Source: Spirogloea muscicola
Taxonomy: Eukaryota; Streptophyta; Zygnematophyceae; Spirogloeales; Spirogloeaceae
Assembly: GCA_009602725.1 (NCBI GenBank)
Contig: WELB01000299.1
Coordinates: 1 to 30,619 of the forward strand
Reading direction: 5' to 3'
Length of the DNA stretch: 30,619 bases
In this document: positions 564 to 24,559 of the stretch, in pieces
Numbering within the stretch: the first letter of the stretch is position 1
Layout of the letters: each line of letters opens with the position of its first letter
Notes under the pieces: model-generated
What the model saw: the letters and a program-made list of their open reading frames with translations, nothing else
What the model was told of the DNA's origin: nothing
Database searches by the model: none
Made by a program: the position numbers and the translations under genes

Positions 564-645
564 CCCCATTGGGAGAGCCACTTCTTCTTCCCCTGCAGCG
601 AGCTACTCCGACCTGATGTTGCTCACTCGCGGGTACTGAGCTTCC
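560..645 (+). repeat. 3' fragment of the LTRGY small-ORF repeat
   Basis: Only the C-terminal part of the repeated reading frame is present: PAASYSDLMLLTRGY with TGA at 637-639. It belongs with the copies at 330-419 and 16307 (minus), which share PAASxSDLxLLTR rather than the PLSSSDF version. Confidence 0.6.
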
Positions 646-689
646 CTTTGCATCGTCTTGCGTTTTGTAATGTGTTTTGTTTTGAAATG

Positions 690-885
690 TGTCCTTTTTT
701 TCGGCACCTCTTTTTCTTTGGCTTTGGACATTGTCCATTATTTTAGGGCTGGCTTTGCCAGCCCCTCTTCTCTACGGGCGAGCACTTTCGTCTTGGTGCC
801 GGCCCCCCTGTCCGCCCGAGTTGGCCCGTTGACTGAAGATCAAGCTCGATGAGAAAAGGCGTGCGGTGCGCATGAATTAAAAGAT
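690..885 (+). repeat. Third copy of the GGGCTGGCTTTGCCAGCCC module, followed by a GTGCGGTGCGCAT motif
   Basis: Positions about 695-785 repeat the arm of the 70-306 inverted repeat, including TTGGACATTGTCCAT and the GGGCTGGCTTTGCCAGCCC hairpin. About 70 bp further on is AAGGCGTGCGGTGCGCATGA (856-875), a motif that recurs at about 26458, 26514 and 27171 and in reverse at about 16076. No gene is recognised here. Confidence 0.7.
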
Positions 886-1110
886 GGCCACTTCGAGCCT
901 CACGGAAAGTCCTGGAATGGAGTGGCCACTAGCTTCGCAAAATTAGGTTGGCCGGTCCGGCCCCTTGGCTCCGTGGCCTGGCCTCTTAACATCCATTGGC
1001 TCCTATCCAAAGAGCCTCCTTACTTGGGCTGAGGTGAGGCTCTTCTCTCTGAAGCGGGCCCCACTCGCTCGACAGTCGTGGATTTGTCCCTCCTGTCACT
1101 GCACTTCCTG

Positions 1111-1395
1111 GAGGCTCGGTGCCTTTGGGTCTTGTGTCCTGCTACCGCATGCGATTGTCTATGTCCCTCCAGCGCTCCCAAGCGCTTGCTTTGCACCGCC
1201 GCGCCGGTCGCGCCTTTGCAGCAGCCTCTGCCTTGCGCAGCGGGGTTGCTCTTCCTCCCCTCAGCTCATCCGACTTCCTAGTGCTGACCCGGGGGTACTG
1301 AGAGCGCCCTGTCTGCCTAGCCTGTGGCTCCGTCAAGAACACTTGTATGCATCTGGCTGGCTTTCACAGCCGCTCTTTCAGTATCAGCAGCCGCA
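1111..1395 (+). repeat. Full-length copy 1 of the repeated LTRGY small-ORF element
   Basis: About 285 bp is nearly identical to 24063-24350. It contains an open reading frame ending at 1301. From the ATG at 1149 the frame gives about 50 residues, with LQRSQALALHRRAGRAFA in the middle and SSSDFLVLTRGY before TGA; the open frame extends about 10 codons further upstream without an ATG. The segment after the stop is also shared (CTGGCTTTCACAGCCGCTCT, then ATCAGCAGCCGC). I do not recognise the peptide. Whether it is translated is unknown; its silent-site divergence pattern against the 24-kb copy is described in the findings. Confidence 0.8.
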
Positions 1396-1399
1396 TTCA

Positions 1400-1790
1400 T
1401 CGTTGTCACTGCTTCCTCGCAGACACTTCGTCACATCTCTTGGGCTGGCCCACCTCAGCCAGCGCCGCCACATCTCAGCCACCGCCGCCCAGGAAAAGCT
1501 CACCTCGGGCGCGCTCGTGCGCGGGCTGCCGCCATGGCGGCGGCGAGCGCCCACCACCGGCGCCCGCAAGGCGGGCCTCGGCGCACTTCTGCGCGCTGTG
1601 ACCTGGAGGCGCCAGGAGGCCCCTCGCTGCGCCCGTCCGGGCGCCGGCACGGCCAGCCGTCGCCGGGCACCTGCCTCGCCGCGGTCCTGGGTAGCCCTGC
1701 ATCCCCACTGTACGCTGAAACCTATGAACCCTGAACCCTAAAGCCCGCCTTCAACCTGCGCGACGAGCCCTCCCCGCCGGGCACTGCCCC
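1400..1790. other. GC-rich spacer with CCCTAAA-like telomeric fragment
   Basis: Long overlapping open frames occur on both strands, as expected from GC-rich DNA with few stops, and none resembles a known protein. At 1718-1743 the plus strand reads AAACCTATGAACCCTGAACC then CTAAAG, a degenerate run of C-rich plant/algal-type telomere repeat. I see no gene that I can support. Confidence 0.5.
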
Positions 1791-2793: not shown

Positions 2794-5571
2794 TCACCAA
2801 AAAATTGGAACATCAAGTTTGGGTGGGGGGTTTCGGGCCAAGTCCAAGCAAGGCTTAGCTGCAACTACGCCCTGCTCGCATAGAACTGCTACAGCAGTCG
2901 TGTAGAGTGAGTCCATGACAGGAAGCCACCACTCAACAACATTCGCAAAGTGCGTGCAGTCGCGCCGGGGTGTCTCAAGATGCACTTGGTGGAAGCCGTG
3001 CATGTCCATCTGCCAAAAGACTGGTTGGACTGACAGCTTGCGAAGGTCAGCCTCCTCTTCAAGAATCTGGTTTCTCCACAGCTGTGGGGGTCAAAGTCAT
3101 GAGGTGTACATAAGCCCCGTAGTCACCTCAGGCTTCGTGATTGACACGTCAACAAGCACATGTACAGTGAGGAGCCACAGATGCATTGATTCACAGTGTA
3201 TGCCAGAACAACGAAAATGAAGGTGCCACAGACAAGCATGGGGGCAGCTAGGAGCTGCACCTGCACAGTCTTGTTTGGAGCAGGGTGGCAGACGCTTTTG
3301 TCTTTAAGCGTTGCGTTAGCTGGCATTGGGTAGTAGCCAGAGCCGTCATAGGAGAAGAAGTGCTGGGGGAAGTTCTGGCGGAAGAAGGCCGCTTTCCCCG
3401 GTTGCTGATGAAACTTCTCCATGCGCTTGCCCAACGCCGTCAGGTCATGCTTAAGCTCCTCAGAAGATCCATAGTGAATTCCTAAATTGGATATGACCTG
3501 CAAAACAAAAGGGGACAATGATCAGGCCTGCAGATTTTCCTATGTGAGAAGCTGAAGCCAGAGGAGCCCATGAAAGATGTGGCGTCCGCTTTGCACCTTG
3601 TACCACCTGCAGCTAGTGGCTGTGAGTGGAGAATATTGCTACATTAGTGTTCACATAGGTATCGAGGTGCTGACCACGTCATATTCCTGGAATATGTAGT
3701 CCAGATGACTTGTGAACAGGTAGTCAGAGTCTGTCCTCCTCTCACGTAAACCAGGAATCAGCTTGTATCCTGTGAAATTCATGAATTGGGAAGATAGTCA
3801 GCAAGTGAAGAGGTAAAACGACCTTTTATCATGATTCCTATAGCAGGAAATCCACAGCAGCCAATGCCAGGCCCTTTTGCTCGCAGACGTGCTTGGCCGG
3901 GGCGATGGCAACTCACAGCCTTTGTGCTTTTTGTCACTCCGCCTTGGCACTAAGGGTGACACTAATCGACGTGTTTACCTACAGGTCATTAAGAGCACAG
4001 AGCACTTCTAAGTGCTGCTATCCTTCTTGCAAGAAGCAGTGCAGTCTGACAAGCTCGTGTTGTTGTTAGATGGGAGTGAATGAGTGGACTGGTCTTCAAA
4101 CGTGGAGGAAAGCATGCACAGCTTCGGCCTTACCTCGCCAGTATGACCAGGTGGCCCCTTCAAATGGACCGTTCAAGATGACGTCCTCTGTCCAGGTGTC
4201 CTCCCTTATGCCTCTCCGGCACGTACTTGTTCGTTTGGCTAGCATCTCCTCCACGCTGTCTGTGTAAGTCATGTTGTAGAAGTACCTGGAGAGGAGCAAC
4301 CTTCAAGTGTAAGGAAGGCTCTCTGTGAAGGCTAAGGGTGCCAGAGAATAGCAAACGGCGACAGAGGGATGACAGATATCACCTGCATTTTGTCTCCAAG
4401 TGACTTTGACCCTGAAGGAAGGAAGACCTACTGTGCTGTCAAGCGTTCTCTGTCATCCGTTGTCCAGCTTGTCATACTGCTCGTCGGGCCAGATTTATTT
4501 AACACAGTGGCCTGAGGCAACAATGAGCATGTGCCCGCACACATCTGACACGACAAGGGGAGATGTTGGCGTGCCTACCTGTGTGTGGGCCCCTCCATCA
4601 GACTCCCGTAACCCAGGGTTTGGAGGGACCTGCCAAACAGCCTGTAGACTTGGGCTGTCAAGGAGTCTCCAATCAGCGCCACCTTGAGACCTTTGAAAAG
4701 CTGCAATGTAAAGCGCAAGTTCGCGAGTGCGTTAGAGTCCGTGCAGTGCTGTAATTAGGCAGACAGAGCATCGAATGGCTCTCTTTCCAGTCAAGCACTC
4801 ATCCCCACATCTGAGGGACGGCTTGACAAAGTGAGGGACATGAAACAACTGAGGAACTTTGCTGCACATGTTACTCGGCCGACAAACTCATCTTCTAGCT
4901 GCATTGCATGGGAGCTTCCCCAAGATCACTCAGACTAGCATCTCAGCTCAGAGCAGTGCTTTGGGCCTGACCAAGTCCCCCAGCTCTCAGCCTCCCCTTG
5001 ACCTGGTTTCGCTCATGGGCTCTACCAAGCCGGTTCCGGCCAGTGAACGAGGCCCACAAACAGGCAACAAGATCAGTCCCCTCTCGTTCGGCTTCTCCCG
5101 GTGGTGGGGATGGTGACAGGGGATGGTGCTCACGAGCGCGACGTCGGCAGCACTGTAGACACGGGAGCCGTCGGTGTGGATGAACTCGAAGCTGCGGTGC
5201 TTCGTGTTCGCGTCGTCGCTGTCCCGGAACGAGGCAACGTCACGGTGCCTGATCGGGCCGACCCACTTGAACTCCGGCGTTGACGGCCGACGCGGGCGTG
5301 TGGGAGCGCGGACTTCCTCGGCCCGCTCGGCCAAAGACCTGCGCAGCTGCAGCCTGCCCTGCCGCACTGCTCCGCGCCGCGTCCTTGCCTGGCGCCGGGC
5401 CTCCAGGCCGTGCGGCTGATGGTCGCGCCACGCATGAGCTGCGCAGGAGTGCCGAGCGTCTGCGGCGGCAGCATAGCGGCCCACCGCCGGGAGATCGCTG
5501 GCGACCCAGCTGAGGCACAGGAGCGCGAGGCAGAGGAGCGGCCGCAGGCACGGCAGCTCCTGCTGCCCCAT
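2794..5571 (-). CDS. Secreted SGNH/PC-esterase-like protein (TBL-like), paralogue A
   Basis: Six exons on the minus strand: 5571-5134, 4700-4579, 4285-4134, 3769-3675, 3497-3261 and 3081-2794. All introns have GT-AG ends and phases join exactly to give about 443 residues. A signal peptide starts at the second in-frame ATG (PLLCLALLCLSWVAS); the ATG at 5643 would add 24 residues, but paralogue B starts at the equivalent of 5571. Exon 2 carries the SGNH block-I motif VALIGDSLTAQ (G157-D158-S159), and the last exon carries DCTH (389-392) followed by WWLPVMDSLY. This GDS...DxxH layout matches PC-esterase/trichome-birefringence-like proteins, which O-acetylate cell-wall or Golgi glycans. The substrate here is unknown, and similarity outside the motifs is too weak to call from memory. 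Of the three local copies this is the only one without visible lesions. It shares a very short divergent promoter with the SCCPDH-like gene. Confidence 0.85.
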
Positions 5572-14994: not shown

Positions 14995-15060
14995 GCTTAC
15001 CGTCTGTATGCACCTGACTGGCTCTTACAGCCGCTCTTTCAATATCAGCAGCCGCATTCA
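14995..15060 (+). repeat. 3' tail of the LTRGY element, without its ORF
   Basis: TTACCGTCTGTATGCACCTG onward to ATCAGCAGCCGCATTCAAGC matches the segment following the stop codon in the copies at 1340-1397 and 24290-24346. The reading frame itself is absent, so the tail can occur alone. Confidence 0.65.
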
Positions 15061-15357: not shown

Positions 15358-15714
15358 AAAGTAAAAACTAAGAGGGGGCTAAGTTAACAAAGCGAGAAGA
15401 CGAGCATTGAAGCAAGTTTTTGCCCATCACCACTGATGCCCAGGAGACGTTGTCGCCGCATCACCCTGAACCATCGTGAGGATGTGCAACCTGGCGGAGG
15501 ACCACGTGCAATGTTGACGTGGTTGTCATGGAAGTCTCCCGAAGGCCCTTCAATGACCTGAAATTTGGTGAGTAGTCCATATCAAAGAAGTGCGCTACCA
15601 CTTTCACGCGCCCGCCGTGATGACCTCCTACCAGCACCATTCGACAGCTGTGGTTGCACAAGTCCTCGATTCCCCACCTTGCTTGAGAGGACTGCTAGTC
15701 TTCTTGTTGTGCAC

Positions 15715-15935
15715 GTTGGATGGATGTGGTTCCAACCGTACTGGGAATGTCGGTAGCATTAAGCAAATTGTTGTTCTTGAGCAGCCGCGTGTCACTTTGT
15801 CTGCATCGAGCCAGGCCCATGCTTGGCACCAGAAAGCTGGGCGAGCATTATGTGGTGGCAGGGGGGCTTGAGGTATGCCGTCTAGCATCCGGGCATCAAC
15901 CTCTACGTACTGACTACCATAAAGCCGCGGATAGT
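15715..15935 (+). repeat. Degenerate copy of the LTRGY small-ORF repeat
   Basis: The frame gives SSQAHAWHQKAGRALCGGR, the conserved core, then a TGA. After a frame change, NLYVLTT appears where other copies have DLYVLTRGY. The element is broken by at least one stop and a frameshift. Confidence 0.65.
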
Positions 15936-16769: not shown

Positions 16770-16985
16770 CCTATCCTCCCCCTCTTGCCGGCAGCCTACT
16801 TGTCATTCTTGCAACGTCGAGTGTCAGCTTGTCTGCAGCGAGCTCAGGCTCATGCTTTGCATCAGAAAGCTGGTCGAGCCTTAGCTGGTAGCTCAAGAGC
16901 TTGTCGATTGCCGTCCGGTATGCGGGCATCAGTCAGCGACCTCTATGTGCTGACTCGTGGTTACTGAGCGGGTCAGCTTAGTAGC
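16770..16985 (+). repeat. Intact-frame copy of the LTRGY small-ORF repeat
   Basis: The frame is open to TGA at 16965-16967 and reads CLQRAQAHALHQKAGRALAG, later SDLYVLTRGY. Against the copies at 1111 and 24063 the differences include conservative changes (R to K, S to A). After the stop comes CGGGTCAGC, which can pair with GCTGACTCG upstream of it. Confidence 0.75.
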
Positions 16986-17735: not shown

Positions 17736-17880
17736 CACGCTTGTATCATGTCGGCAAGCCATCCAGTCACCGCAACAAAAAAGGAAAGTTCACCGCAATA
17801 GGAGGCCCCGCCACCGACCACCTACCACCGACCCTCGTCATCGCCAGGGTTGGCCGCAGCCGCCAAGCTCCCTTTTTGCC

Positions 17881-18112
17881 CGCGCCTCACGCGACAGCCA
17901 GCTCGCCCACACGCCCGCCTTCATACTTGCGGCACCCCGATAAAGTAGATGCCAGATACCCTCTGCATGCATTCGGCCCCTATCCTCAATGGGCGAGCCC
18001 TTTCTTCTTTTTGCTCGCGCCTCACGCGACACCCAGCTCGCCCACGCGCCCGCCTTCATACCTGCAGCACCCCAATAAAGTAGATGCCAGATACCCTCTG
18101 CATGCATTCGGC
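17881..18112. repeat. Tandem repeat, period 135 bp
   Basis: A unit beginning CGCGCCTCACGCGACA at 17881 is repeated from 18016 with a few changes, including GCCCGCCTTCATAC and GTAGATGCCAGATACCCTCT. The second copy is partial (about 97 bp). The unit contains a GGGCGAGCCCTTTCTTCTTT segment that is itself shared with other repeats. Confidence 0.85.
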
Positions 18113-23765: not shown

Positions 23766-24062
23766 GGCTTCACGAGCCCGGCGCAGCAATCTGGAGGCAA
23801 GTAAGCTGGCACTGGCAAGGTCGACAAGACTTCACAAGAGTTCAGATTGCAGGCCCGCAGGACAAGCCGCCAGCTTGCTCAGCGGGTGTGCGCTTCTCCT
23901 CCCTCCGTGCCATCGCTGTGACTGTCACAGACAAGAGTTGCAATTGCGGCGACCGGCGCCTTGCAACCGTGTTCAGTTCACCAAAGCAGGCTGCTGCGTC
24001 GGTGAAGAGCAGGTGCCTGTTTATGATGGAATTGGCACATCAGTTCCTTAGCCCTTCCCGGT

Positions 24063-24350
24063 GGCTCGGTGCCTTTGGGTCTTGTGTCCTGCTACCGTAT
24101 GCGTTTGTCTATGTCGCTACAGCGTTCCCAAGCGCTTGCTTTGCATCGCCGCGCTGGTCGTGCCCTTGCAGCAGCCTCTGGCTTGCGCAGCGGGGTTGCT
24201 CTTCCTCCCCTCAGCTCATCTGACTTCCTACTGCTGACACGGGGTTACTAAGAGCGCCCTGGCTGTCTAGCCTGTGGCTCCGTCATGAACACCTGTATGC
24301 ATCTGGCTGGCTTTCACAGCCGCTCTTTTAATATCAGCAGCCGCTTGAGC
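24063..24350 (+). repeat. Full-length copy 2 of the repeated LTRGY small-ORF element
   Basis: About 285 bp is nearly identical to 1111-1395. The open frame ends at TAA (24249-24251), while copy 1 ends at TGA. From the ATG at 24099 it gives about 50 residues with LQRSQALALHRRAGRALA and SSSDFLLLTRGY. Only three amino-acid differences from copy 1 are seen, despite about fifteen nucleotide differences. Confidence 0.8.
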
Positions 24351-24559
24351 CCTTCTATACACTGAAGCGTACTAAAGTAAAAGTTTGAGATAGCCAGTTG
24401 CTCACGCTTCGGGGGCGCGAGCGTGTCCACACGCCCAGCTTTACGTGGGTTGTTGTCCTGACGACTGACTCTTACCGCTGTTAGTGATGAGAGTCACTAC
24501 AGAGTCCTGATCGTTGTCAGTACATGCCCACTACAGTACCTAACACACTCTCTTCCTCT

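Follow-up and report, generated by a model that had tools for sequence, protein, structure and literature searches.

The window, by which we mean the whole stretch of 30,619 nucleotides of Spirogloea muscicola DNA, contains two copies of a repeat with a small reading frame that varies mostly at silent sites, and the question is whether this frame is a gene. The repeat pair, first delimited as 1111-1395 and 24063-24350, is real: 1101-1394 and 24051-24344 (copies A and B) align over 294 nt with 92% identity. Recounting the 63-codon frame (1113-1301 and 24063-24251) gave exactly the 15 differences that had been counted by eye in an earlier, sequence-only reading, namely 11 synonymous changes, TGA/TAA, and the three residue changes F/L, A/G and V/L. 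That reading saw in them the mark of either a selected peptide gene or a translated parent. The parent was found, since the same residues end R2-like proteins of about 1,350 aa, whereas the stand-alone selected gene was not borne out. We are nearly certain that A and B arose by 5'-truncated insertion of a single-ORF, R2-like non-LTR retrotransposon of the nuclear genome, called family 1 here. Their parts are as follows (L numbers denote genomic loci).

1094..1102, plus strand: 5' member of the copy A target-site duplication, TGTCACTGC
1103..1403, plus strand: copy A, a 5'-truncated LINE family 1 insertion (C-terminal codons, stop, 3' UTR and 3' terminus) with a 9-nt direct repeat on either side
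1113..1301, plus strand: 62 C-terminal LINE codons (GSVPLG...LTRGY) and stop in copy A, which also end the ORFs of about 1,350 aa of L040 and L044
1350..1372, plus strand: hairpin sequence in the 3' UTR of copy A, CATCTGGCTGGCTTTCACAGCCG
1404..1412, plus strand: 3' member of the copy A target-site duplication, the second TGTCACTGC
15004..15060, plus strand: very short 3'-end fragment of family 1, 90-91% identical to the 3' ends of A and B
24050..24057, plus strand: 5' member of the copy B target-site duplication, AGCCCTTC, overlapping the start of the element
24050..24347, plus strand: copy B, a 5'-truncated LINE family 1 insertion, matching the full-length element of L044 at 100% over 297 nt
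24063..24251, plus strand: the same 62 codons and stop in copy B
24348..24355, plus strand: 3' member of the copy B target-site duplication, the second AGCCCTTC

The automatic flank test missed the duplication around copy B. Copy A aligns with the full-length element of L040 from nt 3845 of that element to its 3' end, at 92% identity. Copy B equals the element of L044, copy A belongs to another, more diverged lineage, and the two copies fall in different parts of the tree; the silent-site pattern between them is the distance that separates two element lineages. Neither Rfam (at gathering scores) nor a tRNA scan found anything in the window. A query with the RuBisCO large subunit had no match in the assembly, while two light-harvesting proteins look like those of a green alga. 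In the whole genome the DNA search returned 40 near-full-length places of 91-100% identity, the best 40 of 2,297 first-look candidates (a rough total, of which the remaining 2,257 were unscored). When the assembly (153 Mb, 471 contigs) was searched with the 62-residue protein, 127 of the 150 matches were identical over all 62 residues, these being the best 150 of 15,559 candidates and thus biased toward identity. Both counts show that the repetition of family 1 exceeds chance.

Many of the 150 places were reported to close long open frames. Stop-free frames of 1,278-1,349 aa in L040, L044 and L045 run into the 62-residue tail (the peptide) and share its stop. Searching with the whole 1,349-aa protein yielded 42 matches (the best 34 of 26,990 candidates), and 10 of these were stop-free from residue 32 or earlier to residue 1349. 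Pfam RVT_1 was matched at residues 626-836 (63 bits, E 4e-17). The closest PDB sequences were R2 proteins (E 1.9e-7 with the single sequence, 2.3e-10 with a six-row profile), with L1 ORF2 close after the R2 chains and group II intron reverse transcriptases (RTs) also behind them; a finger near the N-terminus stayed under the Pfam cut-off (zf-met, E 0.11). The full element, which we estimate at about 4.2 kb, encodes one protein of about 1,350 aa, in which a low-complexity N-terminus is followed by a possible Cys/His finger, the reverse transcriptase, a Cys/His knuckle, a probable restriction-like endonuclease (RLE) and a C-terminal helix, the peptide. Another possibility, giant host proteins with a common tail, had been raised by reported frames of more than 6,000 aa; judged on two places these look like N-run artefacts, 9,356 of the 10,000 letters of L043 being N and no frame of more than 6,000 aa being visible in L041/L042.

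A second family (family 2), with long ORFs in L068 and L070, has the same layout and is 45-46% identical to family 1 over the last approximately 790 residues, from the RT to the C-terminus. Both keep C.CG...H...C and then HNLLRDA, R..(V/L)D, D.V..T and E..KL..Y; the R..D, D and E..K positions common to them are as in PD-(D/E)xK domains, with VD or LD in place of the usual PD. Judged from these motifs, the knuckle and the putative PD-(D/E)xK-like region behind it stand in the domain order of RLE LINEs. The knuckle is spaced CX1CX12HX3C in family 1 and CX1CX11HX3C in family 2, while the CCHC knuckle of RLE LINEs is CX2-3CX7-8HX4C according to the available part of PMC5678591; because the spacing is off this pattern, we label the element R2-like and place it in no named clade. 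AlphaFold modelled the part from the RT to the C-terminus with low confidence (pLDDT 30.8), and likewise the C-terminal 245 aa (pLDDT 44.5). The sole Foldseek match of this low-confidence 245-aa model below 1e-3 was R2Tg (9dou_A, E 1.4e-4), beside which its predicted helix/strand order was examined. VIA-align placed model residues 38-223 on R2Tg 1232-1390 with Z 4.6, a value that, like any Z below 8, may reflect merely a common arrangement, and ranked R2Tg fifth after two mitoribosomal chains (Z 5.9 and 5.8), HindIII (4.7) and another ribosomal chain (4.6). On these models the C-terminal region is a predicted domain with a probable resemblance to the R2 restriction-like endonuclease, and the peptide is likely a predicted helix after it. 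Family 1 is a previously undescribed R2-like LINE of known general type.

The further copies listed in the sequence-only reading are indeed relatives, but they belong to other families: those at 16.8, 17.2 and 15.7 kb match family 2, and that at minus 16.4 kb is the tail of a further one. The window contains these tails:

574..765, plus strand: tail of a further related family (ending in SYSDLMLLTRGY and a stop) with its own 3' UTR hairpin
15448..15904, plus strand: older family-2-like fragment containing stops, 38-66% identity
16316..16453, minus strand: tail of a further related family (...SDLRLLTR), 59-65% identical to the family-1 tail
16785..16967, plus strand: C-terminal fragment of LINE family 2 (...SDLYVLTRGY and stop), 78% identical to the family-2 protein of L045
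17106..17407, plus strand: second family-2 C-terminal fragment, 71-89% identity

Pfam gave no match at E <= 1 for the family-2 fragment P0003. A DNA search with 610-765 found 85-100% identity in the best 40 of 1,338 candidates. Tail segments of 77-94 nt with a strong GGGCTGGCTTTGCCAGCCC hairpin lie at 60-153, 223-316 and 710-787 of the window, in direct and inverted copies, and probably come from the 3' ends of another LINE family, lying in either orientation. Direct repeats of 106 nt (17872-17977 and 18007-18112), 135 nt apart and 94% alike, adjoin LINE tails.

How selection acted on the 62-codon frame was followed in 41 copies, which were the DNA matches closest to A (39 plus A, the best 40 of 2,297) and B, six partial matches having been dropped. 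Variants present in at least 4 of the 41 copies comprised 1 replacement and 10 silent changes (codon positions 0/1/10), those in 2-3 copies 20 and 9, and private ones 64 and 31 (codon positions 25/34/36), the last being near the neutral expectation; the opportunity N/S was 2.26 with a transition weight of 2. On a FastTree tree of the same copies, parsimony counts with the stop codon included gave 5N:25S on internal and 106N:51S on terminal branches (Fisher 2.6e-7), the latter with 2 stop gains, and N/S divided by opportunity was about 0.09 and about 0.92, respectively. The frame is interrupted by an internal stop in L012 and L017, and further members of the 41 carry indels within it. Purifying selection is strong in the line of active elements, while the inserted copies are near neutral, with selection undetectable. 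The excess of silent changes that had drawn attention to the frame thus arose because the parent was selected and its copies were free after insertion. The proposed check by dN/dS and codon positions therefore had two outcomes, selection on internal branches and among shared variants, near neutrality on terminal branches and among private ones; the first of these makes the frame more than incidental. A small repeated frame can in this way seem selected because it descends from an active retrotransposon, and 41 copies of 63 codons are enough to see this once internal and terminal branches are counted apart.

The ends of the copies tell how they were made. Family 1 copies have a constant 3' end and 5' ends that are scattered up to full length. 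The 5' end lay within the sequence piece in 33 of the 41 copies, the other 8 running to its edge; among the 33, flank words of at least 9 nt were shared in 6, compared with 0.6% for re-paired flanks; the other 27, two of which abut N, had no such word. In 50 copies the 3' flanks are, for about 10 nt, A/T-rich and then pyrimidine-rich ((A/T)TTC-like) and patternless beyond, as either a short tail or a weak preference for certain targets would leave them. Target-primed reverse transcription with early stops leaves just such features: 5' ends at many positions, one constant 3' end and, in part of the copies, target-site duplications. In such a process the protein would nick the DNA and copy its own RNA from the 3' end, and reverse transcription would usually stop early, leaving short 3' pieces with the last codons, the stop and the 3' UTR hairpin. 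A preference for insertion into other LINE tails was considered and dropped; many flanks hold other tails, and local density was uncontrolled.

A sample of 81 copies (the 2 window copies, 39 found by DNA and 40 of the best 150 protein matches) contained 12 with a common internal deletion and nearly the same 5' end. The deletion is 110 nt long, has GT...AG ends and spans nt 3734-3843 from the ORF start of L044; of 39 loci, 35 have exactly this length and 4 have 107 or 111 nt, and the ends of the deletion are of the type GTGATACC...A(A/G)CAG. The copies with the deletion derive from spliced RNA. In them the reading frame changes at the junction and meets a stop 176 nt beyond it, so that the peptide is no longer in frame with the coding sequence before it. 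A search with the exon junction (best 40 of 492 candidates) recovered 11 spliced copies already in the sample and added 29; with an extra copy in L023, and L075/L129 (42 loci) counted once, this makes 41 distinct spliced copies. Spliced copies lie in L002, L004, L018, L020, L023 (second copy), L029, L076-L082 and L113-L141; of these, L018 was missed by the motif filter and is counted in the 81-copy sample only, its exon-1 length being taken from the 5'-end mapping. Among the few family-2 matches, about 15 loci, there was neither a second intron nor a comparable deletion.

By longest match, 40 of the 41 spliced copies retain 12-34 nt of exon 1, and 30 of them 24-30 nt; the sole exception, L114, retains about 197 nt or more. 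It was also the only one to match across the full query when a query of exon 1 (60 nt) fused to exon 2 (40 nt) was searched against the whole genome (best 40 of 598 candidates). The junction query requires some exon 1, and shorter spliced copies escape it, so that the upper limit of the range is its informative side. In the 81-copy sample the 5' end fell in the 12-34 nt zone in 12 of 12 spliced copies, as opposed to 2 of the 42 unspliced ones that keep at least 12 nt of exon 1 (Fisher 2.7e-10); the remaining 27 unspliced or unclassifiable copies start further downstream. Longest-match 5' ends cluster at 25-29 nt, those limited by the duplication have a median of 24 nt and a range of 16-32 (13 copies), and the typical range overall is about 23-29. 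The spliced copies have flank repeats of their own: at least 7 nt were repeated in 13 of 29, compared with 6.8% for re-paired flanks, in a test that excluded L114, L129 and 11 loci whose 3' end was unreadable. A second cluster of 5' ends, 7 of the 81 copies within 22 nt, lies around the start of exon 2 and consists of A (about 1099-1103), B (about 24050), L013, L015, L023, L024 and L036; L037, which abuts N, was excluded, and in the cluster copies the junction is uncovered and splicing unreadable.

Exon-2 trees were built from 104 rows of more than 220 nt. With 33 rows labelled as spliced the label changed 17 times (19 times with 34 labelled), compared with a mean of 28 and a minimum of 22 after shuffling, so the spliced copies are clustered beyond chance. 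A single clade of all spliced copies was rejected (delta lnL 195.5, p-AU 3e-51, quick tree). L082 and L123 group with B and L044, and L079 with L092, spliced copies thus standing amid near-identical unspliced ones in separate lineages. L128 and L130 form a diverged spliced lineage (support 100) with the same altered letters in exon 1 and perhaps represent a separate source element; ten spliced copies group with the unspliced L039, and within each of these two groups the copies may share a source.

Could A and B be something other than truncated insertions? We give next to no credence to a stand-alone, translated and selected micropeptide gene that was duplicated many times. It would account for the silent-site excess between A and B and for the 127 identical proteins among the best 150 of 15,559, but that identity is partly an effect of scoring the best 150, the same residues end RT proteins of about 1,350 aa, the terminal branches (106N:51S, 2 stop gains) are near neutral, internal stops (L012, L017) and indels interrupt the frame, and the coding sequence upstream of the peptide in spliced copies is in another frame. 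It is very unlikely that A and B belong to a non-autonomous, SINE-like element whose 5' end is defined. The starts of A and B a few nt apart, joined by five others within 22 nt, would suit it, as would the 12 of 81 copies that combine the internal deletion with nearly the same 5' end; the 5' ends of the other copies, however, are scattered up to full length, A and B lie apart on the tree, and the AU test on the quick tree (p 3e-51) is against one clade of deleted copies.

For the narrow zone in which the spliced copies begin, three explanations were compared. An internal promoter about 25-28 nt upstream of the splice donor, giving short transcripts that are almost always spliced, would explain why the 5' end is nearly fixed in several lineages; the 5' ends are nevertheless spread across 12-34 nt, and unspliced copies rarely start there (2 of 42), so that short transcripts would have to be spliced almost fully and long ones almost never. 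We consider this explanation unlikely. Improbable to a similar degree are a few short spliced sources, at least one per LINE lineage, multiplied with the help of the full element. Groupings such as L128 with L130 (support 100) or the ten spliced copies with L039, and the 17 label changes against a shuffled mean of 28, speak for such sources, but the spliced copies among near-identical unspliced ones in separate lineages (L082, L123; L079) would require several sources that all share one 5' end, and the long spliced copy L114 lies within a mostly spliced group. The third explanation, which we prefer and regard as quite possible, if somewhat short of probable, is that spliced LINE RNA is trimmed from its 5' end, or its reverse transcription stopped, at the exon junction complex (EJC), and that the protected 3' piece is inserted. 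Footprints of the complex would then have been left at one intron in several lineages, repeatedly, in dozens and perhaps hundreds of copies.

In the explanation by the EJC, decay would shorten the spliced LINE RNA from its 5' end until it reaches the complex, and what is protected on the 3' side would then be the template for genomic insertion. According to the available part of PMC10226599, the complex is deposited 20-24 nt before a junction, and in plants, worm and human the 5'-phosphate ends of decay are enriched on the upstream side of junctions, most of all at 25-30 nt; the same part gives a peak near 27 nt for Arabidopsis, citing Lee et al. 2020. The 5' ends of the spliced copies agree with the published 25-30 nt by longest match (24-30 nt in 30 of 41), while their median is 24 if they are limited by the duplication; their range is inside the published footprint range, or at or slightly below it. 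Two loci encode Mago nashi, which belongs to the core of the complex. A block to the RT at the 3' side of the complex fits less well, and 5' trimming is preferred to it because the copies reach about 23-29 nt upstream. In the open-licence literature we found nothing on point for a LINE or processed pseudogene together with the exon junction complex, or for green-algal RLE LINEs; the accessible text of PMC13174262 has one exon-junction mention and none of the EJC, and the accessible parts of PMC8476143, PMC4640811 and PMC7998949 added nothing decisive. If the explanation is true, LINE 5' truncation would partly record RNA decay, not enzyme failure alone, and genomes would keep a fossil record of exon junction complex positions. 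The spliced sub-class is the part worth following, and it is possibly weightier than the main result.

It is useful to compare family 1 with known systems. R2 elements are not known to have a poly(A) tail, and the copies of family 1 have none. The R2 clade proper inserts at one site in the 28S rDNA, whereas family 1 has no one fixed target, the 3' flanks of 50 copies diverging after about 10 nt. With R2 (R2Tg, PDB 9dou and 9nl3) and the RLE LINEs it shares a single ORF, an RT, a C-terminal knuckle, a putative endonuclease-like domain and 5'-truncated copies, but its knuckle spacing differs from that of RLE LINEs. The 5' truncation and target-site duplication typical of RLE LINEs are present, the duplications reaching at least 9 nt in 6 of 33 copies. 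The spliced copies are comparable with the SpIREs of human L1, which the accessible part of PMC5860796 describes as genomic copies of spliced LINE RNA: in family 1, too, a GT-AG intron was removed exactly and the inserted copies have target-site duplications. Compared with the SpIREs of that description, the family 1 intron interrupts coding sequence close to the 3' end, and nearly all 5' ends lie just upstream of the junction; neither 'exon junction' nor 'EJC' was matched in the main text of PMC5860796, as far as it was available. The EJC footprints in plant degradomes are alike in position, with 5' ends 25-30 nt upstream of junctions and a peak at about 27 in the available part of PMC10226599. 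The footprints described there are 5'-phosphate ends of RNA, whereas in family 1 it is genomic insertions whose 5' ends lie there, at a single intron.
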